A stretch of 34,461 nucleotides of DNA from Candidatus Woesearchaeota archaeon (GTDB lineage Archaea; Nanobdellota; Nanobdellia; Woesearchaeales; GW2011-AR15): the NCBI GenBank assembly GCA_014729915.1, contig WJJD01000036.1, forward strand, positions 1 through 34,461. Reading direction: 5' to 3'. The position numbers and the translations under genes are program-made. Below, piece by piece: positions 8,565 to 31,002 of the stretch. Numbering within the stretch: the first letter of the stretch is position 1; the number at the start of each line of letters is the position of its first letter. The notes under the pieces are model-generated. The model did no database searches. It was not told the origin of the DNA and was given only the letters and a program-made list of their open reading frames with translations.

Positions 8565-9095
8565 TTATTCTAAAAATTCTTCTTTCCACGTGATTGTTAT
8601 TTTATCTTCTTTTTCAATTGAATCATAAGCTTTATTAATTGAGAATTTTACTTTTGCAGCCATTTTCTCTCCGGTTGCTTTTCTTACAACTGTAAATAAT
8701 GATTCATCTTCATTAAAATAAATTGTATTCATAGAAATTGCAGGTTTACAATTAAATGGCTCTTTGTCAAGCTCTTCACAGATCCTTTCTTCTAAATACA
8801 TACATAGAGAATGACCTTTTCCATATTCACCAGAGGTTTCATTTTTAACACTGATATTTTGAACAATCCTTGGAAAAACAAAACTTTCAATTTCCTGCCT
8901 TTCTCTTCCAATAGCGCAGACATTAGAAATAGATGCCTTAAGTAAGGAATAACTATTCATTGCCTGGTTCACTTCATTATTGTGCACCCAGTTAGAAAGA
9001 AGAGTGTAGCCTGAAACAAAAATTAAGCTTCCTATGATAAGTCCTGCAATAAGCCACATCCACACCTCAACAGATTCAATGGCTTTTTTGTTCAT
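8565..9095 (-). CDS. Pilin-like single-TM protein
   Basis: MNKKAIESVEVWMWLIAGLIIGSLIFVSGYTLL: short basic start plus hydrophobic helix; 4-bp overlap with upstream gene. Confidence 0.7.
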   Translation of the reverse strand: MNKKAIESVEVWMWLIAGLIIGSLIFVSGYTLLSNWVHNNEVNQAMNSYSLLKASISNVCAIGRERQEIESFVFPRIVQNISVKNETSGEYGKGHSLCMYLEERICEELDKEPFNCKPAISMNTIYFNEDESLFTVVRKATGEKMAAKVKFSINKAYDSIEKEDKITITWKEEFLE

Positions 9096-9532
9096 CTTAT
9101 CCTTACGATGATATCTCCGTAATCAAATTCAATGATTGCTTTATTGCTTGAACTAAATTCACTATAGTCAATTTTTGTATCCCAATCACTTCCTGTAAGG
9201 ACTGAACTTATGTCATTATTGCTTGCAGAACAAGTTTCACATTTTACAGTATAGCAGAGTTCTCCAGCATTCTCATTTCCTTTTGATCTTTCATAGCATA
9301 TCTTTGCATGTTTTACTATCTCATTTACAAATCTGGTGTTGTCTCCTGAGCTTTGTACAGTAATTGTCTGCTTATCTAAAAGAATCTGTTCATCACAGTC
9401 TCCTGATAGCTTGCACATGAACTTGTTTGAGCTAAGAGACCATTTTGAAAGCATGCCAACAATAACAAACACTGCAATGACAGAAACAAATATTAAAAAT
9501 GCGTAATTTAGTGGAAGTGCTGCTTTTTTCAT
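9092..9532 (-). CDS. Pilin-like single-TM protein
   Basis: MKKAALPLNYAFLIFVSVIAVFVIVGML; overlaps both neighbours by 4 bp. Confidence 0.7.
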   Translation of the reverse strand: MKKAALPLNYAFLIFVSVIAVFVIVGMLSKWSLSSNKFMCKLSGDCDEQILLDKQTITVQSSGDNTRFVNEIVKHAKICYERSKGNENAGELCYTVKCETCSASNNDISSVLTGSDWDTKIDYSEFSSSNKAIIEFDYGDIIVRIR

Positions 9533-9957
9533 GTTAACCCAAAATCTTTGTTAAGACCCACAAATTCCCTCCAGTAAGGAGCAAGGATCATATAAACTGC
9601 AAATATTATAATTGCAATTAATATAAAATAAATAATATATAAAATTATCTGAAAATTAAAATTTTTCTTTTTTTCTTTGACATTTTTCTTATCTTCAATA
9701 TTTTCATAATCAACTAATTTTTTTTTCTGTGCTTGTTCCTGAAGTTTATGATCCTGCTGAATCGGCTCCTGGGGTCGGCTCTCACGGGTAACTTCTTCAT
9801 ATTCCATAAGTTCATTTATCATTTCATTTGTCATAGGTGTAAGATTTCCGAATGTATCCATCTGGAAAATCCTGCTCTGTACAGTACTATAATTCACAGC
9901 TTCTTTTAAGCTGTCAAATTGTTTTCTCTGGTTTCCGGTTATAACAACATATGCCAT
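9529..9957 (-). CDS. C-terminally anchored membrane protein of the pilus-like cluster
   Basis: Soluble N-terminus, Lys/Glu-rich linker, C-terminal TM IILYIIYFILIAIIIFAVYMIL; within the overlapping operon. Confidence 0.65.
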   Translation of the reverse strand: MAYVVITGNQRKQFDSLKEAVNYSTVQSRIFQMDTFGNLTPMTNEMINELMEYEEVTRESRPQEPIQQDHKLQEQAQKKKLVDYENIEDKKNVKEKKKNFNFQIILYIIYFILIAIIIFAVYMILAPYWREFVGLNKDFGLT

Positions 9958-9959
9958 CT

Positions 9960-11957
9960 TCAGCTTACAACAATCTGTTTATTTACACCATCATATTCTA
10001 TTAAAATATTGTTAGTGTTATATATATCTTGTGAAAATCTGATATTATCTTCTTTTCCGCAGGCATAGTCATCGCCTCTTATCTTATTGTTTGAGATAAT
10101 ATGACAGGAATTTCTTTTCTTAATAAGCTCAGTAATTAATTCTTCTGTTATTTTGTAATTATACTTATAATTTGAGCTTACAGTAAATTCCTCACATAAA
10201 AAATTCTCTTCAGTGTTTCCATATGAAGATGCTCTCCAGCATTCTAAAATCTTATTGAGCAGATCTTGTTCAAGATCATATAAGAGATATTCTATTTTTA
10301 ACTTAAGCTCAACAGCACCATATTTTCTTGAGTTAAGCTCAATTAAAATATTACATTCTTTATTATTTACAGGACAAATTGAATTATCAGACAGAGTTTG
10401 TGAAATTTCTTTAGTAAGATCAATTAATGCTTTTGGATATGAATAACCAAGATTTTGCAAGGGCACAACGAAATTTCCGATTTTTACAGATCTCATATCA
10501 GGATCAAGCTGATATAATATCTTTAAATTATCAAATACAAGAGCACCTTCATCACTTAATATTTTAATTTCGCATTTTTTTCCGATACATATGTCAGCAA
10601 TAATGTTATTAAAAATATATGAATCAATAATTTGAGGCGAGGAGCTTTCATTTAACACAGGAAGATATTCTCCAATTCTTATTCCTCGCATATAAAGATA
10701 AATTTTTTCCGGATATGGAGTTACCATGATATCAAGAATCCCTTTGAAGATACTTTGTTTATCCTTGAATGTAACCGGAGAAAGATCACTGATTCCTGTT
10801 GTTTCTGTAATAATTTTTTGCATCCATGAATTGATCTGTTTGCAGGTTAAAATATTATCACAATCAGGAGAGCCTACCCCATATCCTTCTGCATTTCCTT
10901 CTTCGTCACCTTCAATAGGAAGTAAATAAATCCATTTATCAAATTTTTTACAGTCCGAAACAGCCTGGGCAATTGCATTTTGTTCTGTTCCGCTGAATCT
11001 AGAGGGTCCATTTTTCCAGTTACCGTCATCAGTTACACCAATAGGACCTCCGCCTGTCGGATCAGAATCACTAATCGGAATAATTATTCTTTTTAACTCT
11101 AGATTATTTCTCCAGGCATGATTTCTTGCAATCCAGGAAATGCCAACTGCCCAGGCTTCTTCATATTTATCATAGGGATGCACATGATAATTTCCAGGTG
11201 ATCCTATAACTGGCCCGGGCTCCTGTAATCTCATCACACTTGAGAGCATTGCATTTGTAAGAGTCTTGTTTACACATTCTCCAATAGTTTGACCTTTGCC
11301 AAGAGCATAAATAAAAAATTCAGAATCAATGTTTCTCTCACTCATTTTTTTTTTTAGATCATTGAGATTCTCACACAATGCTTCCCATTCATTTACCATG
11401 CTTGAAGATGTATCAACAACAAAAACGATATCTGATGCTGCAGGCTTTTGTGTACCGATAATTTCAAATGAAGAGTTTATTATCTTTGAATCAGTTGGTA
11501 TTTTTGCTAACTTTACTGAGGGTAATCTTGGATTAGATATGCTCTTTAAAAATGGAGGAATGATTCTTGTAACTCGTTCTTTTTCAATATTATTTTCTGA
11601 AAAATTTTTTAAAACCAGCTCCTCCAGAGAAATTATTAATGATGCGTTTATTATTTCTGCATTTTTTTTTAGATTAATTGATGTTTCTGCATGCCTGTAA
11701 AAATGTAGTATCTTGTTGGGTTTGTTATCAGAAAATTTATTGACAGTGTAAAGTTTTTTTTTCATTAATCCAAGAGATAAATAGTTCTCACAAAATTCAT
11801 CTTTGTTATTGTTATTATTATAGAATGTTTTGCAATACAATTTTTTTCCAGCATTTGTACTTGTCCCGACCATATAGAAGAGAAGCATGATCCCTGCAAT
11901 AGTAATTAAAATAGAAAAAATAACAAATATTGATAATTCCCCTTTTTTAAAATTCAT
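9960..11957 (-). CDS. Pilin-like protein with a VWA domain
   Basis: Start trimmed from the track's 12164 to MNFKKGELSIFVIFSILITIAGIMLL (ATG 11957), immediately after the preceding gene; SDIVFVVDTSSSM is a VWA MIDAS DxSxS. Confidence 0.85.
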   Translation of the reverse strand: MNFKKGELSIFVIFSILITIAGIMLLFYMVGTSTNAGKKLYCKTFYNNNNNKDEFCENYLSLGLMKKKLYTVNKFSDNKPNKILHFYRHAETSINLKKNAEIINASLIISLEELVLKNFSENNIEKERVTRIIPPFLKSISNPRLPSVKLAKIPTDSKIINSSFEIIGTQKPAASDIVFVVDTSSSMVNEWEALCENLNDLKKKMSERNIDSEFFIYALGKGQTIGECVNKTLTNAMLSSVMRLQEPGPVIGSPGNYHVHPYDKYEEAWAVGISWIARNHAWRNNLELKRIIIPISDSDPTGGGPIGVTDDGNWKNGPSRFSGTEQNAIAQAVSDCKKFDKWIYLLPIEGDEEGNAEGYGVGSPDCDNILTCKQINSWMQKIITETTGISDLSPVTFKDKQSIFKGILDIMVTPYPEKIYLYMRGIRIGEYLPVLNESSSPQIIDSYIFNNIIADICIGKKCEIKILSDEGALVFDNLKILYQLDPDMRSVKIGNFVVPLQNLGYSYPKALIDLTKEISQTLSDNSICPVNNKECNILIELNSRKYGAVELKLKIEYLLYDLEQDLLNKILECWRASSYGNTEENFLCEEFTVSSNYKYNYKITEELITELIKKRNSCHIISNNKIRGDDYACGKEDNIRFSQDIYNTNNILIEYDGVNKQIVVS

Positions 11958-11958
11958 G

Positions 11959-13470
11959 TTAACTACCAGACCCAGGAGTTCCGGGAGGAGATGGTGGTTC
12001 AGGATTTGTTGGGGGAGGGCTGGGTGCAACACCTGCATTGTTATTGTTTCCACCGCATGATAGACAATTTCCATATTCACAGGTGTTTCCAGGTGCAGGA
12101 TGCATCCTTGAAAAATAAGTATGTACTTTGAATTTGAAGGACAGAGGAACAAAATTATTTTCATTTAGTGGTTTTTTGTTAAGTATATCAGTGCATGTAA
12201 TTTCAGCAATCTGGCTCCAGTAATATTTAACTCCTTTTCCCTTGCAAAATCCCAGGCATATCTTTGGATCTGTTGATTTGCCGGTATAATTTCCTCCGTT
12301 ATAATTTACTTCTCCTTCTATACAGGGAGGAGGTGGGTTTACAATATTTGGACAGATATTATCTTCACATAAAACATTGCATTTTTCCTCCTGGTCATTA
12401 ACATATTTGCAGCTCTGCTGAACACACTCCCCCTTGCATATATTTCCAAAACTAGGTTCTCCGGTACAATCATTGGTTTTTTCCGGACAGTCAGCACTTA
12501 TTTCTGGATCCATCTCAGTTGTGATTGAAGAATCTCCTGCGTTAGATTCATCACAGAGTATTTCATAATTGCATTCAACATAAGTGCACTTAAAACAATC
12601 AGGATCTCTTGGATTGCATGTTTCATCACAAAAGTTATCTTGATTACAGGTTCCTGTTTCTGAACCTGTTTCACCAGTACAATCAGGATCCTGAGGAAAA
12701 CAATTGTATACGCATTCATTATCTTCATCAAATGAATTCTGAAGATTATTAACAGCATCTTCAAGCATTTTTTTTCCTGATTCTTTGCTCAGTGCTTTAT
12801 AATTGCAGCAGACTTCACTTCCTAAAATTCCGTATAGAGGCATGTTTGAGCAGATGTCGATAGGATAGGAATTGGGAATGATCCATTCATTAATTTTCCT
12901 GTACAAATACCAAAATCTCCAGTTTTCAATATCAAGTTCAAAATCAGGATAGTTATATGACTGCTCTCCTGACTCTCCTGACAGAATAAACTCATCATCA
13001 TCTTCATCAGTTACAGCTCGAACCCTGAAATTTTCATCATATTCTCCGTTTGCGACACCTTCTGCATCAACAAGAATCTCTACTGTGTCTATTCTTCCGG
13101 TCTCTTCAAAAGAAACAGCACTTATACTGTTATCAGTATTTTCAAGTTCTTCAAAATAAAGATTAATAATGGATTTTACTTTTTCTGAGAGTTCTCCTTT
13201 TACTTCATCCACTCCAGGTGCATTAGGAAGAGAGTAGCTGATAAAATATCCTTTGTTTTTCCAGTCAGATGCAAGTTCTAATGAACCTCTCAATGAAGAA
13301 TCTTCAATAGTATTATATATAAATGAGGACAAGGATTCTGAAGATTGCTGTATGTTTGAAATTTGTTCATTTCCACTATCTGTACCTGAATCATAGTTTA
13401 CCACCAGGAACAAACCAAGTGCGACAGTGATAATAAAAGCAGTTAAAAATACTGAACCTCTTTTTTTCAT
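11959..13470 (-). CDS. Pilin-like protein with large Cys-rich ectodomain and Pro-rich C-terminus
   Basis: MKKRGSVFLTAFIITVALGLFLVV; NCFPQDPDC and CNQDNFCDETCNPRDPDC modules; C-terminal PSPPPTNPEPPSPPGTPGSGS. Confidence 0.8.
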   Translation of the reverse strand: MKKRGSVFLTAFIITVALGLFLVVNYDSGTDSGNEQISNIQQSSESLSSFIYNTIEDSSLRGSLELASDWKNKGYFISYSLPNAPGVDEVKGELSEKVKSIINLYFEELENTDNSISAVSFEETGRIDTVEILVDAEGVANGEYDENFRVRAVTDEDDDEFILSGESGEQSYNYPDFELDIENWRFWYLYRKINEWIIPNSYPIDICSNMPLYGILGSEVCCNYKALSKESGKKMLEDAVNNLQNSFDEDNECVYNCFPQDPDCTGETGSETGTCNQDNFCDETCNPRDPDCFKCTYVECNYEILCDESNAGDSSITTEMDPEISADCPEKTNDCTGEPSFGNICKGECVQQSCKYVNDQEEKCNVLCEDNICPNIVNPPPPCIEGEVNYNGGNYTGKSTDPKICLGFCKGKGVKYYWSQIAEITCTDILNKKPLNENNFVPLSFKFKVHTYFSRMHPAPGNTCEYGNCLSCGGNNNNAGVAPSPPPTNPEPPSPPGTPGSGS

Positions 13471-13493
13471 TTTTTCACCTGTATAAATAAAGA

Positions 13494-14003
13494 TTATCCT
13501 GTTGTTATATATATTTTACCAATTCCTGTATTTATTTTGCAGGGTAGAGGGAACATAAACGTATACATTGTGTATTCTTTTCCCGGAAATGGACTACAGG
13601 TTTTTTCTGAAGATACAGGAGGGCCTTCTAATCCGGTTGAAGTGATGCATGCAATGCTGTTAAGTTCAAGCTTCCAGTTGTTTTTTTCATAGATTCTGTC
13701 AAGTTGCTTTATTATTGAATCTATTATATCAATGCTTCCGATATTTCTTCCGTAATCAGCATTTGTAATAGTATAACAGATATAAACCCCAATAAGTTCA
13801 TTTAAAGGGATTCCTTTTTCAGTGATATAGGGAAATTTTGTAACACTTGTAGCAACATAAATTTTATTGAAATCATCAATACTCTCTTTTGTTTTTTCAA
13901 CATTTGTACCGGCTGACCGGATTTTTGAAAATAAAAGAATAATAACAAGAACAACAACCAACAGCACAACACCGATAAATTCAGAGGATTGTGCTTTTTT
14001 CAT
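13494..14003 (-). CDS. Pilin-like single-TM protein with class III-like signal
   Basis: MKKAQSSEFIGVVLLVVVLVIILLF: K-A-Q-x-S-x-E-F resembles the DUF361 class III signal peptide. Confidence 0.82.
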   Translation of the reverse strand: MKKAQSSEFIGVVLLVVVLVIILLFSKIRSAGTNVEKTKESIDDFNKIYVATSVTKFPYITEKGIPLNELIGVYICYTITNADYGRNIGSIDIIDSIIKQLDRIYEKNNWKLELNSIACITSTGLEGPPVSSEKTCSPFPGKEYTMYTFMFPLPCKINTGIGKIYITTG

Positions 14004-14737
14004 GATAATACCTCAACTTCATTATTTTCAAAATTCAAATAAACTAGTTTTTCTCCTTTTTCAAGATAAAAATCATGTACAGTACAGGAAAAATAAGGCT
14101 TAAAACAAAACTCATCAATGCAGAACTGATTATTTTCATAACGGATGTTCTGGTCAACATCAAGACTATATTCAAGATCTTTTTTTAAGGTACAGCTCTC
14201 TTTAATCTTCCCGTAAAAACCAGGGATGTTTCCGATGTAGGTTGTAAGAGAAGCAGCACCGTTATGGACAATTCCTCCTTGATATCTGATTACACATGGT
14301 AAAGTTATTTTGATTTGTCTTTGCACCCAGTCAAAAGAATTTATAAAAGGACCAATGCGCCAGCTGCTCTGTGTGTCAAGATCTTTTACCACAAGAGCGT
14401 ACATGAAATCAAAATTTTCTACACACCAGAGATCAGCATTATTCTCATCAAATATTTTAAGTTTTTCAGCCTCAAGAACTCCCTGGATAGCAGAATATTT
14501 ACCCTGGTTAAGGTAATTTCCCATTGAAACACAGTTCGGGTTGCTTAAAAGCACCAATATGAATCTACTTGCCAGATCATAATAATCAAAATGTCTTTGT
14601 GTTTGTTTTTGTGAGGATCTTGCTCTTAAAACAGTCATCAGGATAAAAAAAACAAAAAGTACAATAAAAATTGCAAACAAACTCTTGCTTGTGAAAGCAG
14701 ATCCAATCTTACCTGAAATACTGCCTGTACCTTTCAT
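14000..14737 (-). CDS. Single-TM protein of the pilus-like cluster
   Basis: N-terminal TM SLFAIFIVLFVFFILMTVL; ectodomain with Cys; 4-bp overlap with the next gene. Confidence 0.68.
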   Translation of the reverse strand: MKGTGSISGKIGSAFTSKSLFAIFIVLFVFFILMTVLRARSSQKQTQRHFDYYDLASRFILVLLSNPNCVSMGNYLNQGKYSAIQGVLEAEKLKIFDENNADLWCVENFDFMYALVVKDLDTQSSWRIGPFINSFDWVQRQIKITLPCVIRYQGGIVHNGAASLTTYIGNIPGFYGKIKESCTLKKDLEYSLDVDQNIRYENNQFCIDEFCFKPYFSCTVHDFYLEKGEKLVYLNFENNEVEVLS

Positions 14738-15206
14738 CTTTTTTTATATCTTCAACAATTTCCTGATCAGTCTGGTTTGTCCAATTACTCTCTTGTTTTT
14801 GCTCTTTAATGTTTGAATATCTGTTTATATTATCAACGTTGTATATTTCCCTGTCTTTTTCAATTTTTTGCCCTGCGATTTTTTTAAATAACAGGATAAG
14901 AAAACCAAGTATTGTTATGATGCTTGCAGTTCCTAAAATATAGCCCCAGGCAGGATTTGATTCTTGTTTTTTTGTTTCTAGTTTATAATCAGGACAGTCA
15001 GGATCTGTTTTTATGCAGTCAGGATCACATCTTCCTTCATTAACATTATCACAGAAATTATCTTTATGACCTGATGCGCAGTCTTTTTCACAGGAATAAT
15101 AATTTTCATTCTGATCACAAAAACCGTTTCCGCAGGTAAAATCCTGGGATATTACAATATTTACAAAAAAAAATACAGTTAAGATATAAATAAGAGTTTT
15201 TTTCAT
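14709..15206 (-). CDS. Secreted/anchored Cys-rich protein (CDPDC module plus TM)
   Basis: N-terminal signal, TCGNGFCDQNENYYSCEKDC...GRCDPDCIKTDPDC, then TM GYILGTASIITILGFLILLF. Confidence 0.75.
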   Translation of the reverse strand: MKKTLIYILTVFFFVNIVISQDFTCGNGFCDQNENYYSCEKDCASGHKDNFCDNVNEGRCDPDCIKTDPDCPDYKLETKKQESNPAWGYILGTASIITILGFLILLFKKIAGQKIEKDREIYNVDNINRYSNIKEQKQESNWTNQTDQEIVEDIKKDERYRQYFR

Positions 15207-15207
15207 T

Positions 15208-15963
15208 TTAACAGTCTAAATCGTTTCTCATGCAGTCAGGATCACAGACTCCGTTTGCTTTTGTGCTGGAAAGGCAGTCAAGATCACAATAATTATCAAT
15301 TATCATATGAATATCAGGATCACAGATCTCATCTCCAGATGCTGTACAATCAGGATCGTAATATCCGCCGTTTCTGTAGCTGTTATAGCAGTCAGGATCG
15401 CATATTGAGTCCCTGTCTTTCTCATTAATAATTTGATCTTTGTTTGTATCTATGCAAAAACTTATACAGGAATTATCTTTTTCTTCTGAATAGCAGTCAG
15501 GATCACATTTATTTTCAATCATGCATTCAGGATCGCAGACACCGTCATTCATTCTGCAATTAAGTTTATCTGATATATAGATATTTCTGTTTTTAGAAAC
15601 AATATAAATTTTCCCTGAAGTAAAAAAATTATTAGGTATTATATTATAGTTTGATACAATAAGAGCATCCTCAATTGAATAATCGTAATCAGGAAAAAAA
15701 ATCTTTAAACCATGATTATTTATTGAAAGTTCATACTCAGGGACATCTGAAAAACTTAAATTGTATGAAAATCCCGATGGATACATCATGGATTTTTCAA
15801 TTGAATCTTTAACTTTTCTGAAAAACCGGTTAAGTGAATCATGTTCAGTTGTTTTACTCTGCCAGAAAAAGATGTTTTGGATGGAGGATATTGCAATTAC
15901 AGCAATAATCATGAGCCCGAAAATAAGAACAAAATTAACAACAGTAGCACCTCTTTTTGACAT
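15208..15963 (-). CDS. Pilin-like protein with multiple CDPDC repeats
   Basis: MSKRGATVVNFVLIFGLMIIAVIAI N-terminus; VCDPEC, KCDPDC, ICDPDC, YYDPDC, YCDLDC, VCDPDC. Confidence 0.78.
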   Translation of the reverse strand: MSKRGATVVNFVLIFGLMIIAVIAISSIQNIFFWQSKTTEHDSLNRFFRKVKDSIEKSMMYPSGFSYNLSFSDVPEYELSINNHGLKIFFPDYDYSIEDALIVSNYNIIPNNFFTSGKIYIVSKNRNIYISDKLNCRMNDGVCDPECMIENKCDPDCYSEEKDNSCISFCIDTNKDQIINEKDRDSICDPDCYNSYRNGGYYDPDCTASGDEICDPDIHMIIDNYCDLDCLSSTKANGVCDPDCMRNDLDC

Positions 15964-16289: not shown

Positions 16290-18515
16290 ATGGATGAGGG
16301 TTATGATGATTTTTATGATAAATACAAGGAAAAAATAGACCAGGAATTTTCTTCTGATTATTTTGAATCTCAGGAAACTAAACTTACCTCAAAAGAATAT
16401 CTTGAATTCAGGGAGCAGCACAAACCCACACAATTTGCGTGGTATGAAAAGGGCTGCAATATTGCTGAAAAAATAATAAAAATATCACCTGATAAAAAAA
16501 AAAAACAGGAAATACAGGATTCAATCGAGTTCTGCCACATGAATGTAACTCCGACAGGAGTTGTCAGTTTCTCAATCCTTTTTCCAATTATATACATCCT
16601 GCTTGGCTCATTTGTAAGTCTTATAATCACTTCTGTCTTATTAGGAGAAGGCAGTATGTTTCTGATAATTTTTTTTTTACTCTCCGGAATTGTTATGATA
16701 TTTCCATTAACAAACCTTCCCTTTATCATTGCAAACAACTGGAGATTAAAGGCAAGCAACCAGATGGTTCTGTGCATATTCTATATAGTTTCATACATGA
16801 GACACACCTCAAATCTTGAGCTTGCAGTAAAATTCACATCAGATCATATCGATCCTCCTCTGTCTCTTGATTTAAAAAAAGTGCTGTGGAATGTTGAGAC
16901 AGAAAAATATGAATCAATCCAGGAATCACTCTCAGCATATCTGAAATCATGGGAAAAAACAAACAGGGATTTTGTTGAGGCAATGCATCTAATTGAAAGT
17001 TCGTTGTATGAACCCTCAGAACAGAGAAGAATAGAAGCTTTGGAAAAATCTCTCTCATTGATATTAAGCGAGACATATGAAAAAATGCTTCATTACGCAC
17101 ATGATCTTAAATCCCCGATAACAATGCTTCATATGCTAGGAATAATCCTTCCGATACTCGGACTTGTACTTCTTCCTCTTGTAATAAGCTTTATGGAAAA
17201 TATAAGATGGTACCATATTTCACTTCTTTATAATGTTGCCCTTCCTATCGGAGTATATTACATGGGAAAGATGATACTTTCAAAAAGACCCAGTGGTTAC
17301 GGAGAAACAGAGATTGCAGAAAACCCGAATTATAAAAAGTTTAAGAATATTCTTGTGAGAGTCGGAGAAACAGAGATTGCAATCCCGCCTTTGATAATCT
17401 GTTTCATGATTTTTTTCGTGTTTGCAGGAATCGGACTAACACCAGTCATACTACACAAATTTGATACAACAGAGGACAAATCCTTTGATATAATTGTTGA
17501 CTCAAGGGGAAATCTTAAGACAATACAGACTTTTGCAGAATCAAAGGATGCAAAAATAAGCTTTCTTGGCTACAAAAAAAGTAAGGCAGATTCAACAAAG
17601 ATCATAGGACCATTTGGACTTGGTGCAACAATTTTCAGCATGTTTATTACTCTTGCTGTAGGTCTTAGTATAGGTATATATTACAAGCTTACAACAAAAA
17701 AACTAATAAAAATCAGGGATAAATCAAAAACACTTGAATCAGGATTTGCATCAGCTCTGTTTCAGCTGGGAAACAGGATAGGAGAAGGAATACCAGCAGA
17801 AATTGCATTTTCCAAGGTTGCTGAACTTGAAAAAGGAACCCCTGCAGGTGATTTTTTCAGTTATGTCAGCATAAACATTTCTAAATTTGGTTACGGAGTT
17901 AAAAAAGCCATATTCGATGACCAGAACGGAGCAATCCAGAAATTTCCTTCAGAATTAATAGGAAGCTCCATGAAAATATTTATTGAAAGCGCAAAAAAAG
18001 GTCCGATGATAGCATCCCAGGCATTAATAAACATCTCAATTTATATCAAAGAGATGCATAAGGTTGATGAAAGACTTAAAGATCTTATGGCAGAGATAAT
18101 CAGCAGCATGAACTCCCAGATAAATTTTTTAACTCCTGCAATATCTGGTATTGTAATCGGAATAACATCGATGCTGACTTTAATCATAACAAAGCTAGGG
18201 CAGCAGATAAGCGATCTAAGTTCAGGAGATGCGATGGGGGGTCTTGGAGGAGCAGGATCATTAATTGATATGTTTGGTGATAGTGTCCCTACTTATTATT
18301 TCCAGATAATAGTAGGTATTTATGTTGTCCAGATAATCTATATTCTGACAGTACTTGTAAATTCCATACAAAATGGTGTTGACAGGCTAAGCGAGAAAAA
18401 CATGATTGGAAAAACAATCACAAAAAGCATTCTTCTATATTCTGTAATTGCAACTGTAATAATGATGATATTTAATATGATTGCAGGAGTTGTTATGAGT
18501 GGATTTGGGCTGTAG
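16290..18515 (+). CDS. FlaJ/TadC-type (T2SF-domain) pilus assembly platform protein
   Basis: 741 aa with two sets of TM helices around cytoplasmic T2SF-like helical regions (e.g. FASALFQLGNRIGEGIPAEIAFSKVAE). Confidence 0.85.
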   Translation: MDEGYDDFYDKYKEKIDQEFSSDYFESQETKLTSKEYLEFREQHKPTQFAWYEKGCNIAEKIIKISPDKKKKQEIQDSIEFCHMNVTPTGVVSFSILFPIIYILLGSFVSLIITSVLLGEGSMFLIIFFLLSGIVMIFPLTNLPFIIANNWRLKASNQMVLCIFYIVSYMRHTSNLELAVKFTSDHIDPPLSLDLKKVLWNVETEKYESIQESLSAYLKSWEKTNRDFVEAMHLIESSLYEPSEQRRIEALEKSLSLILSETYEKMLHYAHDLKSPITMLHMLGIILPILGLVLLPLVISFMENIRWYHISLLYNVALPIGVYYMGKMILSKRPSGYGETEIAENPNYKKFKNILVRVGETEIAIPPLIICFMIFFVFAGIGLTPVILHKFDTTEDKSFDIIVDSRGNLKTIQTFAESKDAKISFLGYKKSKADSTKIIGPFGLGATIFSMFITLAVGLSIGIYYKLTTKKLIKIRDKSKTLESGFASALFQLGNRIGEGIPAEIAFSKVAELEKGTPAGDFFSYVSINISKFGYGVKKAIFDDQNGAIQKFPSELIGSSMKIFIESAKKGPMIASQALINISIYIKEMHKVDERLKDLMAEIISSMNSQINFLTPAISGIVIGITSMLTLIITKLGQQISDLSSGDAMGGLGGAGSLIDMFGDSVPTYYFQIIVGIYVVQIIYILTVLVNSIQNGVDRLSEKNMIGKTITKSILLYSVIATVIMMIFNMIAGVVMSGFGL

Positions 18516-18558
18516 AAAATTATTTAAATTTTGATTTACTATTTAGTTAATAAAAAAG

Positions 18559-21285: not shown

Positions 21286-21853
21286 AAAAGCTCAGATCTC
21301 AAGCCAGGTTTTTATCTATATTCTTGCAGTTGTCATACTATCAATAACAATGTTATTCGGATACAACATGATTGATCGGTTCAGGAAAAATGCAGAATTC
21401 TCCACAATTAATGACTTTGAAAATCAGATTAAGCTGTCAGTAAATGAGCTTTCAAATGAATATCAATCAATAAAACGTGAAAAATTTATTCTCCCGCAAA
21501 AGATAAAATACTTATGTATAGCTGACAGCAATATTAAACATAACAAAAATCACATTATATCAAGACTTGCATTATACAATCCAAATATCATTTCATCTCA
21601 GCTTAAGATTATTCTTGAAGATAGTTTTGAAAGCAATATCCTGAAAAATATTTTTCTTACAGATTCAAATGAAATCATTCATTCATTTTTTATCAACAAC
21701 ACCCAGATTTGGGAAATCGATGCACCTGACTGCGATGATTTTTCCAAAGACTCCTGTAATATTTATTTTAGATGTTTTGAAAATACAAATAACATTGAAA
21801 TTATATTTTACGGAGCCGGAAACAAGGTAAGAATCGCCAAAGATACCACATGA
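21275..21853 (+). CDS. Pilin-like protein with class III-like signal
   Basis: MNYKKAQISSQVFIYILAVVILSITMLF. Confidence 0.8.
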   Translation: MNYKKAQISSQVFIYILAVVILSITMLFGYNMIDRFRKNAEFSTINDFENQIKLSVNELSNEYQSIKREKFILPQKIKYLCIADSNIKHNKNHIISRLALYNPNIISSQLKIILEDSFESNILKNIFLTDSNEIIHSFFINNTQIWEIDAPDCDDFSKDSCNIYFRCFENTNNIEIIFYGAGNKVRIAKDTT

Positions 21854-22881: not shown

Positions 22882-22883
22882 AA

Positions 22884-23396
22884 ATGAAAAAAAAATCACA
22901 GATCCAGATGATGCAGACAATCATTATTTTAGTAATTTTTTTCTTTTTGATTGCAATAGGATTGATATTTTATTTTTCTTATCAAAAATCAGGTCTTAAA
23001 GACAAGTCAAGAATATATCAGAACATTGAGATGATAAAAAAATCTCAGATACTGAGTTTTTTGCCTGAAATCCAGTGCAGTTTCGGAAATATAATTTCTT
23101 CAGATTGTTATGACATCCAGAAAATTCATGCATTTACATCAACTGTTTATCCTGATAATAAATATTACTATGATTCACTATTTGGAAATGTGAGAATTTC
23201 AATATTAAAATATGAAACCAAGATTCATAATTGGAACCAGTCTTTAATATGGAAAGGAGATTCCGGTTTAACACTTTATGATAATTCAAAACCGGATTAT
23301 TCAGGTATAAGAAATCTTGAGATCCCTGTTAATCTGTTTGATTCAGCATTAAATAAATATTATTTCGGGATAATCAAACTGGAGATATACCAATGA
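22884..23396 (+). CDS. Pilin-like protein with class III-like signal
   Basis: MKKKSQIQMMQTIIILVIFFFLIAIGLIFYF. Confidence 0.8.
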   Translation: MKKKSQIQMMQTIIILVIFFFLIAIGLIFYFSYQKSGLKDKSRIYQNIEMIKKSQILSFLPEIQCSFGNIISSDCYDIQKIHAFTSTVYPDNKYYYDSLFGNVRISILKYETKIHNWNQSLIWKGDSGLTLYDNSKPDYSGIRNLEIPVNLFDSALNKYYFGIIKLEIYQ

Positions 23397-23899
23397 AAAA
23401 GAAGTCACAGACAGAAATTTTTGGTCTTGTAATTATTGTGATAATTCTAATTATGGGAGTTGTGTTTCTTGTGGGTTCAAGACTCAACAAAAAAGAACAA
23501 ACAGATTCAGGAGTAAGTGAATCCAAATATTCGCAGAATTTGTTAGGTTCAATTCTTAGTACAGACACACAAGCCGGTCTTAGCATCTCAGATTGTATCC
23601 AGGATATTGTAAAAACAGACAATAAATGTACAGATGAATCATTTGATTCTTCATTTGATTACACAAGATTTGAAATAGAAAAAATTCTTGAAAAAACATT
23701 AAATAAAAGGAAAAAAGAATACACTTTATTAATAACAAAAAAATCCGGAGAAAATATAAAATCCGCCATAGACTCATCAAAAGAGTTTTTGCCTATTAAA
23801 AACGGAAATTGCAATTCTTTGCAGGAAAAAGAGGCACCCGGAATAATGTTTTTACCTGCTCATGAAACTTTGGTGATAAAATTAGAAGTCTGTAAATAA
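23393..23899 (+). CDS. Pilin-like protein with class III-like signal
   Basis: MKKKSQTEIFGLVIIVIILIMGVVFLV; 4-bp overlap with the upstream gene. Confidence 0.8.
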   Translation: MKKKSQTEIFGLVIIVIILIMGVVFLVGSRLNKKEQTDSGVSESKYSQNLLGSILSTDTQAGLSISDCIQDIVKTDNKCTDESFDSSFDYTRFEIEKILEKTLNKRKKEYTLLITKKSGENIKSAIDSSKEFLPIKNGNCNSLQEKEAPGIMFLPAHETLVIKLEVCK

Positions 23900-23905
23900 C
23901 AGTTT

Positions 23906-24253
23906 TTATGCGAATGTTATCAGGTCGTTTATTTCAATATTTTTTTGACGGATTGAACTACAGGGAAGCTCAATTACGTAATTTGCTTTTTTTTTTGAAT
24001 TATATATTCTAAAAGGTTTGAAATTTTCTTTTATTTCAATAACTTTTTTGTTTTTGTCAAGAAAAACAACATCAATCGGATAAAACACAAAAAACATGTG
24101 CAGATTAATTTTTGTTTTTTTTTCAAAAACAAAAATTAAACATTTGTCTTTTATTGGTTTTGTAAACATTAATCCAAGAGTTTTTGAAAAGATTGATCTG
24201 CATATTTTTATTTTATCTGCAATAATATTTTTTTTTGTTAAGTTTTTTAGCAT
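23906..24253 (-). CDS. DUF192 family protein
   Basis: KTLGLMFTKPIKDKCLIFVFEKKTKINLHMFFVFYPIDVVFLDKNKKVIEI matches the DUF192 pattern. Confidence 0.85.
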   Translation of the reverse strand: MLKNLTKKNIIADKIKICRSIFSKTLGLMFTKPIKDKCLIFVFEKKTKINLHMFFVFYPIDVVFLDKNKKVIEIKENFKPFRIYNSKKKANYVIELPCSSIRQKNIEINDLITFA

Positions 24254-24305
24254 TGGTCAATAAATTTGTATATTATTATAATTTAAATACCTTTATTTTT
24301 TCCCC

Positions 24306-25274
24306 CTAACAACTGTCCTTCTCCAGGATATCAATTTCGTATACTCCTGCATGATTCTGATCAATTCTGAACCAGTCCTGCATGTTCTCAACATTGCAGT
24401 AATCAGTTGTTGTAATATTGTTAAAATAAAGATAATCGATAAGTGTTTTGTTTTTTACAGATAAACCTTGTTTTTGAAAGTCATCAAGGTATACCATGCT
24501 TTCAATGCCCATGCTTGAATTTGATAAATTTCCTGTAAACCTCATTAAAAAACTTGGAGCATCAGTAGAAGTAATATAATAAGAATTATTCAGATGAGTT
24601 TTAAGATTTGTTGTGTCATTTGTTGAATCATCAACAAAGTCAGAAAAAGTTGTTGGGAATATCAGGTTAGAAACTTTATCATCTGAATGTACTGTGTATA
24701 ACGGATCCTCAAAACCCGTTACATTTATGATAGTTCTAAAGGTTTTATTATATGCCCATACTGCAAGATCTTTTTTATCACTTATATTTATAGTTGCATC
24801 AAATATTATTTTTACAGTATAGAAAGAATTCATTTCAAGATCAATATTTCTTGGGTAAAGATTTACCTCAATATTTAGTTTTTCAGATTCTTCATTAATT
24901 CTGGAAAGCCAGGAAGTTATATCTGCACCATGACCTTCCTGCTTCATAATATTTATTTCTGTTCCGTTTGCAGTTCCGTTTTCAAAGATTTCTGAAAAAA
25001 TTGAATCTAAATCCTGGATAAATCCTTTTTTTATTCTTATATATTTTTGGAGACTTAATAGGGATCTATACCCTCCGATAAACATCTCTCGCTGCATATC
25101 ATTCTCAAAATCATCCACAAAATTATTCATTGTTCTGATTCGTGTAGAAATGGCATAACTCTTTTCTCTGTACCTGTTTGGATTTCTGGTACTTACTGCA
25201 ATAACAATAAATATTACCAGAAATACTGCAATAAAAGTAAAAAATACTCCCTTTTTGTTATTAATTATTTCCAT
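24306..25274 (-). CDS. Pilin-like single-TM protein of the second cluster
   Basis: MEIINNKKGVFFTFIAVFLVIFIVIAV followed by a large ectodomain; overlaps the VWA gene. Confidence 0.75.
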   Translation of the reverse strand: MEIINNKKGVFFTFIAVFLVIFIVIAVSTRNPNRYREKSYAISTRIRTMNNFVDDFENDMQREMFIGGYRSLLSLQKYIRIKKGFIQDLDSIFSEIFENGTANGTEINIMKQEGHGADITSWLSRINEESEKLNIEVNLYPRNIDLEMNSFYTVKIIFDATINISDKKDLAVWAYNKTFRTIINVTGFEDPLYTVHSDDKVSNLIFPTTFSDFVDDSTNDTTNLKTHLNNSYYITSTDAPSFLMRFTGNLSNSSMGIESMVYLDDFQKQGLSVKNKTLIDYLYFNNITTTDYCNVENMQDWFRIDQNHAGVYEIDILEKDSC

Positions 25275-28200
25275 ACCCTCACCTCAGCTATTGCAGGACC
25301 CCAGGGGTAAGGAATTTTTCCGACAGATAAAGCACCGATAATAAAATTCTTTTCTTCAAGATCAACAAATATTCGTCCGTTGTCATCAAGGTCAAGCTGG
25401 TTGAGAAGCCTGTACATTGCATCATCATAGGTGTCATTCTGATCAAACTGATAAGTTCCGGATTGAATTGCTGAAAAACTGTAATTACATTTTTTTCCCC
25501 CGGTATAGTCAGGCGGAACAGCAACTGTTGTATTTTTTTTATTTTCAAACTCAACATACCAGGTGCATCCGACTGCTTTTTCAAGCACATCACTGTAAGA
25601 AACAGAAGACTTTAACAAAGCATTATAAATTAAGGTATTATTTTCTGAGCATCCTGTCATGTTTTCATAACTGTCTCCTGTCCTGATACTAATCTGATTT
25701 GTTCCGTTTGTTAGATCTAGATAGGCAATATTTACAATAAAAGGATCTCCAAGTGTTGTGTAATCCTGATTAAAATAACTTAGATTATACACCAGATTAT
25801 TATTCACAACAAGTTCATCAGTCCAGTGCTCAGAAGAATATGAAGTTACTCTTGCGTTTGAAATTCTTATATTATTTGGTATGGTTATATTACTGCTGCA
25901 GTTAACTAAAGGTTCTTCAACAACAACAGATATCTCCCCAAACTCCGGTGGCTCACTAAGCGGAGTATAATTTATCTGGATGTAGGAATCACCATACAGT
26001 TTACTATTTGATAAATTTCCCTGAACCTCGATAGTTTGTGCATGTCTGCTGGCTGAAACAATTTGGGAAGCTACATCAGAATAAAATTCCTGTAAAGCAG
26101 TTATATTATCACTTTTTGAAAAAATACCTTCACCGCAGTTAGCAATTCCCTGTAAAGTCAGTTCATCAGCTTCATCACTGTATCCTACTGCATAAACAGT
26201 AATTCCGTAATTTTCCCTTGCATCACACGCAGCCTGAACAGCATCGTCACTGTCAGTATCTGAATATCCATCCCCGTCAAGATCTCCGGTTATTCCTTGT
26301 TCACTGCAGTCTATATTTGCCTGGCCGTCTGTCATGACCATCATTGCTTTATCCCTGGAATCATTCAATGTTATTAATTTGAGATCAAATTTTGCGGACT
26401 TGTCTGAATTAGATAGATCAACTGCAATAACATTATTTCCCTGGAGAAAATAATTTTTTGAAATACTTTTTCCATGAATATTCCAATACTCTCCCTGATG
26501 TTCCATCGGATCAGAATCAATTATATTTCCATTAAGATATACTATAGCATTATCATCTGAGAGTACATTAAGCACTCCTTTTTTAACATCAGTTATATCG
26601 TCTATAGTAAAATTCTTCCTGAAATAATAATGATTTGTAAGATTAGAGATTTTTAACTGGATATTGTCAAAATACCACTTACCTTCATCATCATTATCAT
26701 CTCGTTTGAGTTTTCCTCCTAAACTCAAATAATAAATACCAGGACCCTCGATCCAGTCTTCAATATATTGGGAAAATGAATCTGATTCATCACCATCCGG
26801 ATCCTCATCAGTATAGATTTCAAAGGAGTCATCAGAAGGATCCATCCCTGAATCTTGATTTTCCCCTAGATAGTGCACACCAGAAAAAGATGAATTCCAT
26901 ACAGATTTTACCCAGACTTGATCCTGGGAACCGAACGTTGATCTGTCATCCCACCACCAGTCAAAAGATATTGTTGCCCTGCCGTTTTCAGAATCAAGTA
27001 TCTCATAAATCTGTTGAGTTATATTTATCTCGATACCATAAGCTCCGGAAACATCATTATCATTATCCCTTGAATCAATACTTAATCTTCCGTTTAAAAT
27101 CCCTTCAAAGTCAACAGATGAAGAATATTCAAAAACACCTGATGAATAATCCCAGCCGTCATTTCCCTGATTTATTCCGAATGTGTTTGCTGTACTGTTT
27201 AAAATTGATGAAGAGAAATCATTGGGGGGACCTGAATTGTCATTCTGATGTTCCCACAGGTTAGCATAAACTATTCCTGTTCTTGAGCCAGTAAATTTCA
27301 ATTCAATATTATCAAACATCCAGTAACCGTCATCATCACTGTCATCTCGTTTGAGTTTTCCTCCTAAACTCAGATAATAAATACCAGGACCCTCGATCCA
27401 ATTACCGATTGATTGTGAAAAAGATCTTTGCCCAGTATCACCATCAGGATCTTCATCAGCGTATATCTCATTTGTTGAATCAGATGGGTTATGACCTGAA
27501 TCATAACCACTGCCAAGGTAATGCACACCAGAAAAAGATGAATTCCATGCAGCCTTTACCCATACCTCGTCCTGGGAGCCGAACCAGCTGTGCTCATCCC
27601 ACCACCAGTCAAAAGAAACTATAGCCTGACCATTATTTGATAAAAGATCATACATTTCCTGGGTTACATTAATCTCGATACCATAAGCTCCTGACACATC
27701 ATCTCCTGTACTCAATGAATCGATCCTTATCCTTGTAGAATACATATCAAATGCTACACTTCCTGAATAATCAAAAACACCTGATGAATAATCCCAGCCG
27801 TCATTTCCCTGATTTATCCCGAATGTATTTGCCGTGGTGTTTAAAATTCCTGAAGAAAAATCATTGGGAGGTCCAAATGTGTCTGATTGATGCTCCCATA
27901 AATTTCCGTATAATGATGGTGCAGAAAGATCATTACCTAATTGTGTATCCACATATGGCTCATAAATATAACTATTTGTGCTTCCTAATATCGCAGAACC
28001 TGTGTTCCATGTTGAATCATTAAATCCCAATTCATACCATATATCTCCTTTTGTATCATTTGGAGGAAAACTATAAAAATAGTTGTTGTTATATTTCCAT
28101 AATGAACCATTTGAGATAACTTCAGTTCTTATGATAGAATCAGTTAATATATCTCTTGCAGAATTAATCCCGCAGCAGATGCATGTGTTTCCGTCTGCTT

Positions 28201-29671
28201 CATAACCTGATTCAGGACTTGAATTTCCGATTGTCTGATACAGCTTTGAAATATTTGTTGTTGGAGCTACAGTCTCAGAGTCATGGGTGACAGCTTCATA
28301 AGAGATTAAACCAACCTCATTTCCAGTTATATTTATTATATTTTCAGCAAAATCCTTGTCGAGGCATTTTGCAACACTTAACCGTGATGTAGAAAGCTCA
28401 CCTAAATTAGCATCATCACAGTTTCTTTTTGTTCCTGTATTACTGTTATCCATTCTCCTGTCCATGCTTCCGGAAATATCAGTAATTAATGCAACATCTG
28501 CATTGCCTTCATAAATATAGCCAAAACTGACATTTTCAAAACCTAATCTGATCGGAACAGTTTTTGAATCTAATGAAGAATATGAAAGATCTGTCAGGTT
28601 ATTATCTTTAAGTGTTATGTTTTCTTCACCGGTTAAGTTTTTTAGTTTTAGAACCGTTGTGTTTCCGATAGTTAAGTACAGAGTGTTGTTTGAACTGTTT
28701 GATTGATTTGCAAAATAATGAAGAAAAACTTCTAATGATTCAAGGTCTCCGGGCACATAAAAAGAAGAATATAAATTTACAATTCCCTTAATTTCAGGAA
28801 ATGAGTATTTGTCTCTTCCTGATTCTGTTTCGATGTTCATTGTATTTGTCTTATATGTTACCCTGAAAAATCCTCCACCGACATATGAGTCTCCCATTTC
28901 ACAATTAAAAACAATTGAAAAATTATTTTTTGCACCAGGAGTTATATTGTTAAGACACTCTGATATATTCCAGGAATCCGCACTCATTGATCCTGTTCCT
29001 GGATTAAATACTCCCTGGCACTGATCATCATTTATAAAAATTTTAAATAATCCTCCAGAATCAAGCTCAACATAAAGTTCAGATAAACTTGCATTTTCCG
29101 GAATATTATCAATATATCCTGAAATATTCCCCTGTCCTACAAATCCACCAAAATAAAGGTATGAAGAAAATGTCTTTTCATTAATACCTTCAAGATAAAC
29201 CTTCGATGTTGCTCCTTTTAATGGTTTGAATTTCTCAAATCCTGAAACCATTCTTCTGTATGATATTAAATCATCAATTCTACCTGATTTAGAATCATTT
29301 GAAATAACTATTTCATCATTTACAAGAATCTGCATTCCGAATTTTTCAGGTATTATTTTTTCAGTGAGTATTTTTGAAAGATTATTGGAAAGTTCAGTTT
29401 TATTTAATACATAAAATTCACTGATCTGCTCTATAACAGAATTATTGATGTTTGTAATATTGCCATTTTTAATCAGACTCTTAACATATGAATCATTTAT
29501 CTCATTAATTTTTAAGTTTGCAAGGCTGTTTACAATATCTTTGGAATAATAATTCATCTGTAAAGAGCTTTGTTCTTCAATAAAAAATGAGAAAATCAAA
29601 ATTAAGCTTGAGGCTAACAAAATCCCAGCAAATAGTCCGTCAATTGTAAAAAACATGCTTTTTTTTTTCAT
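25265..29671 (-). CDS. Giant pilin-like VWA-domain surface protein with internal domain duplication
   Basis: Start likely ATG 29671 (MKKKSMFFTIDGLFAGILLASSLILIF), 4-bp overlap with the upstream gene; ADVALITDISGSM MIDAS; two homologous NLWEHQ...FDNI(E/Q)LK blocks. Confidence 0.85.
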   Translation of the reverse strand: MKKKSMFFTIDGLFAGILLASSLILIFSFFIEEQSSLQMNYYSKDIVNSLANLKINEINDSYVKSLIKNGNITNINNSVIEQISEFYVLNKTELSNNLSKILTEKIIPEKFGMQILVNDEIVISNDSKSGRIDDLISYRRMVSGFEKFKPLKGATSKVYLEGINEKTFSSYLYFGGFVGQGNISGYIDNIPENASLSELYVELDSGGLFKIFINDDQCQGVFNPGTGSMSADSWNISECLNNITPGAKNNFSIVFNCEMGDSYVGGGFFRVTYKTNTMNIETESGRDKYSFPEIKGIVNLYSSFYVPGDLESLEVFLHYFANQSNSSNNTLYLTIGNTTVLKLKNLTGEENITLKDNNLTDLSYSSLDSKTVPIRLGFENVSFGYIYEGNADVALITDISGSMDRRMDNSNTGTKRNCDDANLGELSTSRLSVAKCLDKDFAENIINITGNEVGLISYEAVTHDSETVAPTTNISKLYQTIGNSSPESGYEADGNTCICCGINSARDILTDSIIRTEVISNGSLWKYNNNYFYSFPPNDTKGDIWYELGFNDSTWNTGSAILGSTNSYIYEPYVDTQLGNDLSAPSLYGNLWEHQSDTFGPPNDFSSGILNTTANTFGINQGNDGWDYSSGVFDYSGSVAFDMYSTRIRIDSLSTGDDVSGAYGIEINVTQEMYDLLSNNGQAIVSFDWWWDEHSWFGSQDEVWVKAAWNSSFSGVHYLGSGYDSGHNPSDSTNEIYADEDPDGDTGQRSFSQSIGNWIEGPGIYYLSLGGKLKRDDSDDDGYWMFDNIELKFTGSRTGIVYANLWEHQNDNSGPPNDFSSSILNSTANTFGINQGNDGWDYSSGVFEYSSSVDFEGILNGRLSIDSRDNDNDVSGAYGIEINITQQIYEILDSENGRATISFDWWWDDRSTFGSQDQVWVKSVWNSSFSGVHYLGENQDSGMDPSDDSFEIYTDEDPDGDESDSFSQYIEDWIEGPGIYYLSLGGKLKRDDNDDEGKWYFDNIQLKISNLTNHYYFRKNFTIDDITDVKKGVLNVLSDDNAIVYLNGNIIDSDPMEHQGEYWNIHGKSISKNYFLQGNNVIAVDLSNSDKSAKFDLKLITLNDSRDKAMMVMTDGQANIDCSEQGITGDLDGDGYSDTDSDDAVQAACDARENYGITVYAVGYSDEADELTLQGIANCGEGIFSKSDNITALQEFYSDVASQIVSASRHAQTIEVQGNLSNSKLYGDSYIQINYTPLSEPPEFGEISVVVEEPLVNCSSNITIPNNIRISNARVTSYSSEHWTDELVVNNNLVYNLSYFNQDYTTLGDPFIVNIAYLDLTNGTNQISIRTGDSYENMTGCSENNTLIYNALLKSSVSYSDVLEKAVGCTWYVEFENKKNTTVAVPPDYTGGKKCNYSFSAIQSGTYQFDQNDTYDDAMYRLLNQLDLDDNGRIFVDLEEKNFIIGALSVGKIPYPWGPAIAEVRVWK
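26646..27910 (-). repeat. In-gene tandem duplication of about 640 bp (two ~210-aa domains)
   Basis: Copy 1 27269-27910 and copy 2 26646-27268 share long near-identical stretches, e.g. CACCTGATGAATAATCCCAGCCGTCATTTCCCTGATTTAT. Confidence 0.88.
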
Positions 29672-30210
29672 TCTCGATCCCACAAATAAATGTTCATCTC
29701 AATTATGTTTGAAGTAATATTTCCGTTAATGTTTTTTTTTAAGACAAGATATCTTTTCAGACTTACAAGTTTATCAGGATCCATTGTTTTAAGAGTGTCA
29801 TCAGTTTCACCTGGGTCTCCAAAAAATTTCTGTGTAAGATTAATTGTTCTGTTAACCTGATTTTTAAAAAACACTAAAAAATCATATTTTGTCTGCAACA
29901 GACTTTTTGTATGTTCATAATCAAGCATAGTCAGATTGTAAAACAAAGAAAGTTTTGTCACATTTAGTATATAGTTTCCGTTTGTTATACCGATGCTTAT
30001 TACATTATTTTCATTCCAGGAACCAGGAATTCCCTGACTCATAAGGGATTCAGAAACAGAGTTTAATGATAAAACCATGTCTTTTAATTCATCTTTTTTT
30101 GTATAAGAGTTATCAGACACATATTTTAGTGATATAAGAAAAACAATAAGAAATATAGTGAGACCTAAAATAAAGTCAGTATACCAAATCTGGGCTTTTT
30201 TTTTATCCAT
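29668..30210 (-). CDS. Pilin-like protein with class III-like signal
   Basis: MDKKKAQIWYTDFILGLTIFLIVFLI. Confidence 0.8.
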   Translation of the reverse strand: MDKKKAQIWYTDFILGLTIFLIVFLISLKYVSDNSYTKKDELKDMVLSLNSVSESLMSQGIPGSWNENNVISIGITNGNYILNVTKLSLFYNLTMLDYEHTKSLLQTKYDFLVFFKNQVNRTINLTQKFFGDPGETDDTLKTMDPDKLVSLKRYLVLKKNINGNITSNIIEMNIYLWDRE

Positions 30211-30211
30211 G

Positions 30212-30592
30212 TTAACAATTGATGCATACTGTCTGATTTACTTTTCTTATAACATTTATCCCTTTCTGGATAGATCCAGTTGTGTTAGGGATTAATTTTG
30301 CGATATCTCCTTGAGAATAATTTATGATAATAACCCTGTTAGTATTTCTTATATCAAAATATATATTTTCAATATCATTATCAATTAAAAATTCTCTCAT
30401 GTATCCGTTTTTAGCTTCACTTGCCAGGATAAATTCGTTTTGTAAATAATATGAATAATCCTCCATAATTATCCTTTTTTTTTGTTTTGCATCAGTTTCA
30501 ATCCATTCACCGATCATCAGGATAAAGACAAGAGTGATAGTTAAACCTAGGCTTATCATGAAAATGAATTCCATGCTTATCTGTGCTTTTAT
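30212..30592 (-). CDS. Pilin-like protein, probable non-AUG (AUA) start
   Basis: Track ORF starts at ATG 30574 (MEFIF), but in-frame upstream codons read I-K-A-Q-I-S-M-E-F, a class III signal, from ATA 30592 overlapping the upstream stop (ATAA). Confidence 0.6.
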   Translation of the reverse strand: MKAQISMEFIFMISLGLTITLVFILMIGEWIETDAKQKKRIIMEDYSYYLQNEFILASEAKNGYMREFLIDNDIENIYFDIRNTNRVIIINYSQGDIAKLIPNTTGSIQKGINVIRKVNQTVCINC

Positions 30593-31002
30593 CCTGAGAT
30601 TGATACTGAATCACCCTGAGCTTCAATAACTATATAATGAAGTCCTGAATTAATTGATATGTTTCCAGTGATGTTAACAAGAGAAGTGAAGACAACTGAA
30701 TGGAGTGTATTATGATGTGTTCTGTAGTGAAAAATCAGTTCTCTCTCTGCAATACTTATATTTTCAATCTTTTCAGGAAACATTACTTTTAATGTTGTTT
30801 TTGATGGTTTTCCAAGATAATAAATTGTTTCTGATTTATCAATCAAGTTCATTCCGATATTTCTGATCTGGTTGACATGAATCTTATCTTTTGTTTCGTG
30901 GGACTGGAGCTGGAAAATTATTAAAAGGGGGATTAGCATCACAAAAACAAAACCAAAGATTACAAGAAATTCCATTGCTATCTGTGACCTCTTTTTTTGC
31001 AT
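30589..31002 (-). CDS. Pilin-like protein with class III-like signal
   Basis: MQKKRSQIAMEFLVIFGFVFVMLIPLLIIF. Confidence 0.83.
   Translation of the reverse strand: MQKKRSQIAMEFLVIFGFVFVMLIPLLIIFQLQSHETKDKIHVNQIRNIGMNLIDKSETIYYLGKPSKTTLKVMFPEKIENISIAERELIFHYRTHHNTLHSVVFTSLVNITGNISINSGLHYIVIEAQGDSVSISG

Follow-up and report, generated by a model that had tools for sequence, protein, structure and literature searches.

The DNA analysed here, referred to throughout as the window, is a stretch of 34,461 nucleotides corresponding to contig C164 of a 2.04 Mb assembly (186 contigs, 94% complete). Contigs of this genome are labelled C, genomes of relatives G (the source genome itself being G000) and sampled loci L, and genes are called by their lower coordinate. 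Between 8565 and 31002 the genes fall into three blocks, as an earlier reading made from the letters alone (the sequence-only reading) had outlined with the same coordinates, and the list of open reading frames agrees. Block 1 comprises nine genes on the minus strand (8565-15963), block 2 six genes on the plus strand (16290-23899), and block 3 five pilin-like genes on the minus strand (24306-31002) together with a DUF192 gene that extends it to 23906. Spacing inside the blocks ranges from -29 to +52 bp, and the sole long gap, of 326 bp, separates the divergent genes at 15963/16290. The archaeal origin of the locus was borne out, its nearest named relatives being Woesearchaeota; those of the platform protein described below come from Candidatus Woesearchaeota and other archaeal MAGs. 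Near the window end, 33918-34385 encodes what was judged by eye to be the N-terminal part of a tyrosine recombinase-like protein.

Prepilin signals were scored with a FlaFind-like pattern rule instead of a trained predictor; it asks for [KR][GAS] and then for 14 residues forming a hydrophobic stretch that lacks charges. Class III signals were accepted in 15 of the 21 products encoded between 8565 and 31002 (16 with a corrected start for 30212, see below) and in 0/14 flanking genes, apart from 7918-8553. The background rate of this rule, 106/963 other ORFs of at least 120 aa in the fetched loci, is inflated, many of those loci being pilin-rich. Homologues of most pilin families were accepted at 60-100%, with a lower figure for the 14000 family, while no ATPase or full-length platform was accepted. 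The class III N-termini proposed by the sequence-only reading were thus recovered by this rule, and so was its picture of a pilus-like locus with many diverse single-copy pilins and a TadC platform. Its K-[AS]-Q-x-x-x-E-F motif fits 30212 strictly and 30589 and 13494 loosely; the remaining signals are K/R-[AGS] variants. Five products are not prepilins: 9529, 14709, 18559, the platform 16290 and the DUF192 protein 23906. Two Peptidase_A24 genes, on contigs C16 and C166, supply the genome with prepilin peptidase. Pfam and NCBIfam searches with single region proteins gave almost no matches, and none of these proteins matched a pilin family above the Pfam cut-off.

The centre of the region encodes TadC1 (16290..18515, plus strand), a T2SF/FlaJ-type membrane platform. 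Pfam returned no match for the window protein and a weak T2SSF match for 4/16 of its orthologues (best E 0.007), and a Foldseek search with the platform model found nothing significant, PilC (3jc8) appearing only at E 0.38. Nor did the platform, 9960 or 25265 match any PDB sequence. Profile-profile comparison of TadC1 with length-filtered, T2SSF-positive TadC halves reached 95% probability (E 2e-8). Together with an ATPase neighbour in 18 of 20 sampled genomes of the order, this match upholds the FlaJ/TadC-like platform that had been recognized at the centre from the sequence alone. TadC1 orthologues are 48-71% identical and occur in 273/288 genomes of the order; matches were found in 146/148 good genomes of the phylum, in some of them only to a divergent relative.

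No motor ATPase is encoded in the window. The neighbour of TadC1 in relatives is a GspE/CpaF-type ATPase of ~770 aa (ATPase770), the profile of which matches the GspE2, CpaF and FlaI structures. These ATPase770-TadC1 loci usually include two coiled-coil-like, heptad-repeat proteins (cc1 and cc2) and three small membrane proteins, and a pilin-module match lay near TadC1 in only 1/20 sampled genomes. At L021:8206-9983 the three small membrane proteins near ATPase770, which have no recognized Pfam family, are kept across the order. The source genome carries its ATPase770 orthologue (66% identical to that of L017) on contig C5, beside a second platform, TadC2, that is 29-32% identical to TadC1. 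Two small pilin-like genes also lie beside this ATPase770-TadC2 pair, and the genome encodes six T2SSE ATPases in all. A further ATPase770-TadC1 pair, 51-58% identical to the window and C5 proteins, was seen at L045 (G008:C50), back to back with a mini module C and an ATPase500 machine (both described below), so that two motors are adjacent there.

Block 1 is termed module A, and all nine of its genes lie on the minus strand. Read in the direction of transcription, it begins with a pilin-like protein containing Cys-rich CDPDC repeats (15208..15963, signal accepted), a family that ranges from 251 to 837 aa in relatives. An accessory protein with a Sec-type signal, a CGNGxCDxxE motif and a C-terminal TM follows at a conserved position (14709..15206). 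The next gene (14000..14737) serves as the module A marker and encodes a pilin-like protein, supported by alignment, with the signal KS/LFAIF. Downstream are a pilin with the signal KA/QSSEF (13494..14003), accepted along with 7/7 homologues, and a large Cys-rich pilin-like protein with an accepted signal and conserved order (11959..13470). A VWA-headed pilin (9960..11957) precedes an accessory with a soluble N-terminal part and a C-terminal TM, which is non-prepilin by sequence and keeps its position in L044, L051 and L100 (9529..9957). The module closes with two accepted pilins, one whose position is kept in L044, L051, L100 and L103 (9092..9532) and one with the signal KA/IESVEVWMW (8565..9095).

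Judged by its one marker, module A is lineage-restricted, as that gene was found in 7/118 genomes of the order, two of the matches being weak and with internal stops. Gene order is kept beside TadC1 in G008 and G005, and also, with two extra genes, in G013 from another family. The latter genome has all three, TadC2 (C9:22582), module A and TadC1 (C9:40209), within a short stretch of a single contig. G118 has module A and TadC2 interleaved in a single operon, and in G121 the two are neighbours. Homologues of 8565 were found beside TadC2 in G008, G005 and G118 and within module A of G013. Beyond the coordinates given by the sequence-only reading, the plus-strand gene 7918..8553 encodes a pilin-like protein with a class III-like signal (RG/EKSLQMIFGL), and its homologues likewise adjoin TadC2 in G008, G005 and G118. 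A second, partial module A without a platform was observed elsewhere in the source genome (L099, G000:C120:14000-33999), consisting of a VWA pilin and homologues of 11959, 13494, 14000 and 15208.

Both VWA proteins reported by the sequence-only reading proved real. For 9960, which has no match in Pfam, the DTSxS sequence (MIDAS DxSxS) is invariant in five homologues. Additionally, a Foldseek search with its AF2 model (mean pLDDT 68) pairs it with integrin beta headpieces and I-domains (E 3e-6, prob 1.0), and the global TM-scores of only ~0.2 make this a domain-level match. Residues 4-46 and 566-665 of 9960 align to a headless pilin of the same genome (C5:13772-14377), indicating that the head, an insert of ~515 residues (about 47-561) with beta domains and the VWA, is inserted within a small pilin scaffold. 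The module C protein 25265 was identified by Pfam and by its motif halves. Its Pfam VWA match (E 7e-4) falls under the curated cut-off, and a homologue reaches 5.5e-10. This VWA domain is split, with DISGS at 398, MTDGQ at 1113 and an insert at about 511-1102. The insert is absent in G006, holds one repeat in G004, G007 and G008, and holds two in the window, G005 and G009; the internal repeat was deduced from alignment of the one-copy orthologues, as self-BLAST did not report it. In some module C homologues, which are shorter (about 615-640 aa), neither Pfam nor a clear motif reveals a VWA, and the module C head is thus not universal. The VWA heads would be expected to bind metal and ligand.

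Downstream of TadC1, on the same strand and after only 43 bp, begins module B, a five-gene plus-strand cassette. Its first gene (18559..21285) encodes a secreted TSP3-repeat protein (Pfam TSP3_bac E 4e-12) with a Sec-type signal, a TM and a basic tail, and the homologue of this gene heads the cassette in most sampled loci. Four pilins with accepted signals follow, at 21275..21853, 21850..22881, 22884..23396 and 23393..23899; the second is the module B marker, and the other three were also found conserved within the cassette. Wherever the module is complete, the order 18559-21275-21850-22884-23393 is kept. The 21850 marker was detected in 99/118 genomes of the order and 117/148 of the phylum. 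Module B is missing or undetected in 19/118 genomes of the order, nearly all of them TadC1-positive, and because TadC1 is near-universal there, co-occurrence of the two within the order is uninformative. No motor was found within 10 kb of module B in the 15 other sampled loci.

Outside the order, module B was present in 25/31 genomes with a strong TadC1 match and in 0/12 with a divergent one, a table in which 11 unlisted genomes were assigned by elimination. The difference between strong and divergent groups (Fisher p 1.2e-6) is uncorrected for phylogeny; counted by family, it becomes 13/13 against 0/7. Module B is also present in the one out-of-order genome without a TadC1 match. Genomes with divergent TadC1 may simply evolve faster, which would confound the co-absence of module B. 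The assignment of module B to the TadC1 motor thus rests on one adjacency in this lineage and on a co-occurrence confounded by phylogeny and faster evolution.

Block 3, on the minus strand, is module C. Its first gene encodes a pilin with the accepted signal RS/QIAMEF (30589..31002). The second, 30212..30592, has an annotated ATG at 30574, and an in-frame K-A/QISMEF lies upstream of it. The true start is probably just upstream, at an ATA that overlaps the TAA of 30589, a reading that fits the window and its relatives: a similar non-AUG arrangement (30575-30592 in the window) is seen in G008, G006 and G007 (where the codon is GTA), and G004 has GTG. Next come a pilin with the accepted signal KA/QIWYTDF and conserved order (29668..30210), the VWA pilin (25265..29671) and the module C marker, a pilin with the accepted signal KG/VFFTF (24306..25274) found in 78/118 genomes of the order. 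The order 30589-30212-29668-25265-24306 is conserved, and the DUF192 protein gene (23906..24253, minus strand, Pfam DUF192 E 9e-18) is often the last gene of the module, a position shared by several module C loci. Elsewhere in the window, 2605-3947 encodes two adjacent membrane-anchored proteins; in G001 (L090) and G007 (L097) their homologues are next to a small set resembling module C.

Module C has a different motor for a neighbour. An array of a wHTH protein, a ~500-aa ATPase (ATPase500) and TadC halves lies within 5 kb of module C in 15/19 sampled loci and, judged by eye over a longer distance, in 17/20. The ATPase770 motor or a window-type platform was near it in 0/19. The ATPase500 linkage also holds in the family member G007 (L082). 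The source genome has wHTH-ATPase500-TadC-half loci on two contigs, C59 and C143; contig C4 encodes one more ATPase500 alongside TadC halves. The sequence-only reading had expected homologues of the region to be linked to T2SF/TadC genes, and this held for modules A and C and failed for module B in the sampled relatives. G006 has module A next to module C, and G008 and G009 have module B there, so that the machines may share some pilins.

Among known systems, the archaellum was set aside, in agreement with the sequence-only reading: none of the 20 proteins scanned matched archaellins, FlaD/E, FlaF/G or FlaH in Pfam. A bacterial-type Tad pilus was likewise rejected, the defining pilins Flp, TadE and TadF being unmatched among the region proteins. 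Class III signals, a T2SF platform and a prepilin peptidase are all present, and a GspE/VirB11-type assembly ATPase is provided, outside the window, by the C5 orthologue beside TadC2. From these genes the system would belong to the type IV filament superfamily, the filament itself being predicted. In a separate locus of this genome (L026, G000:C8), another T2SSE-family ATPase lies by a KaiC-like P-loop protein of 232 aa and small archaellin-like proteins, possibly an archaellum locus.

Two conserved type IV pilus loci with CpaF, TadC and coiled-coil proteins have been described in cluster-2 DPANN (Hamm et al. 2024, PMC11291902). Compared by description, their CpaF-TadC-coiled-coil grouping matches the ATPase770-TadC1 loci with cc1 and cc2 in relatives; it recurs in the C5 ATPase770-TadC2 locus and not in the window, where TadC1, having parted from the ATPase locus, is placed among pilins. 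In the passages of that paper devoted to these loci, FlaF and PilA are named only for locus 1, with no description of modules A, B and C or of VWA heads. The archaeal type IV pili of clades 1-2 of Makarova et al. 2016 (PMC4858521), including the Methanococcus Epd pili, have two TadC genes and multiple minor pilins. The present system resembles them in its ATPase with two TadC proteins, its many class III minor pilins and its modular exchange of pilins, and differs in having no Pfam-recognized pilin family and in carrying VWA on the pilins themselves. In that study, archaeal VWA proteins are regarded as regulators (ArnB, MoxR-linked), and TadG is cited for bacteria only. Similarly, the bacterial Tad pilus (TadB/TadC, and TadG with VWA) shares a CpaF-like ATPase, two platforms (here TadC1 in the window and TadC2 on C5) and VWA among pilin-like proteins, but archaeal class III signals, different accessory genes and the unmatched Flp, TadE and TadF set the present system apart. 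PilB of Streptococcus sanguinis is a modular VWA type IV pilin with a direct role in adhesion (PMC8179133). The likeness to PilB, a VWA head on a type IV pilin, is one of architecture, with homology not claimed; in 9960, unlike in PilB, the pilin is interrupted by its head, and the genome encodes a headless paralogue. Makarova et al. 2019 (PMC6393860) have also drawn attention to DPANN islands near TadC whose pilins show no detectable similarity. Within the collection of papers searched, none combined DPANN, pilin and von Willebrand; what appears to be new is which module goes with which motor, together with the insertion of VWA heads.

The window carries the pilin sets of at least two machines, as follows from module C's linkage to its own motor and from the restricted distribution of module A. 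We consider it likely that these 22 kb, from a Woesearchaeota-like archaeon, hold the pilin cassettes of two different type IV filament machines. Shown here are which genes are present, their prepilin signals, the homology of the platform, the linkage of the modules and the VWA fold. Machine I would consist of the ~770-aa GspE/CpaF-type ATPase on C5 and TadC1 at 16290, plus TadC2 on C5, and would assemble module A and most likely also module B. Machine II, whose ATPase (~500 aa) and two-protein TadC are encoded on other contigs, would assemble module C. By analogy with established type IV filament biology, from which processing, polymerization and tip position are taken, prepilins with class III signals would be clipped by a membrane A24-type prepilin peptidase, and the ATPase-driven platform would pull the cleaved prepilins from the membrane as their N-terminal helices pack into filaments. 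The diverse single-copy pilins would form the filament tip and base. No major pilin was identified, which counts against this reading. The metal-dependent VWA heads, on one pilin each in modules A and C, would be located at the tip or close to it and bind a partner cell or a surface, and the filaments may thereby serve adhesion and host contact.

The sequence-only reading instead took all three blocks for one large adhesive or host-contact filament machine. Their contiguity fits such a machine, as do the neighbouring B and C modules of G008 and G009 and A and C modules of G006. It is nevertheless improbable, since module C is accompanied across the order by its own ATPase and split TadC and was never found near machine I, and since modules A, B and C are distributed very differently (7, 99 and 78 of 118 genomes). 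How module B fits is a separate matter. It might serve another motor, machine II or one of the further T2SSE ATPases, with its place behind TadC1 being accidental: none of the 15 other loci offers a motor neighbour, six T2SSE ATPases are available in the genome, and pilin sets and motors are reported to recombine (PMC4858521). Against this stand the 43-bp same-strand spacing and the co-absence with divergent TadC1 outside the order, and we regard the idea as doubtful.

Machine I might also build a pseudopilus, used in secretion or in DNA uptake, and no adhesive pilus, with the modules supplying pseudopilins and the VWA proteins guiding substrates. TadC1 is near-universal, strongly conserved and usually single-copy, as expected of a core function, and a repeated major pilin gene is not seen in the window. 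However, the VWA and TSP3 regions are similar to modules known from adhesion or the cell surface, and no partner genes for DNA translocation or secretion were noticed in the loci examined. We therefore think a pseudopilus rather unlikely and retain two filament machines as the preferred interpretation. More tentatively, and with slightly less than even confidence, we propose that TadC1/ATPase770 builds the orphan, order-wide module B, that TadC2 adds module A in a few lineages, and that integrin-like heads have been gained and lost by insertion, yielding a partner-specific attachment filament.

A central question about DPANN archaea is how they attach themselves to other cells and exploit them; their pilus motors are known, whereas most of the filaments built by those motors are not. 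The locus cautions that adjacent pilin genes need not build one machine. It also documents adhesion-type VWA heads inserted in archaeal pilins, with a headless version in the same genome and headless and repeat-expanded ones among relatives. Finally, it suggests how pilins may be paired with two widespread motors and supplies conserved marker genes; in particular, it suggests a link between the near-universal TadC1 motor and the module B pilins, which previously had no known motor.
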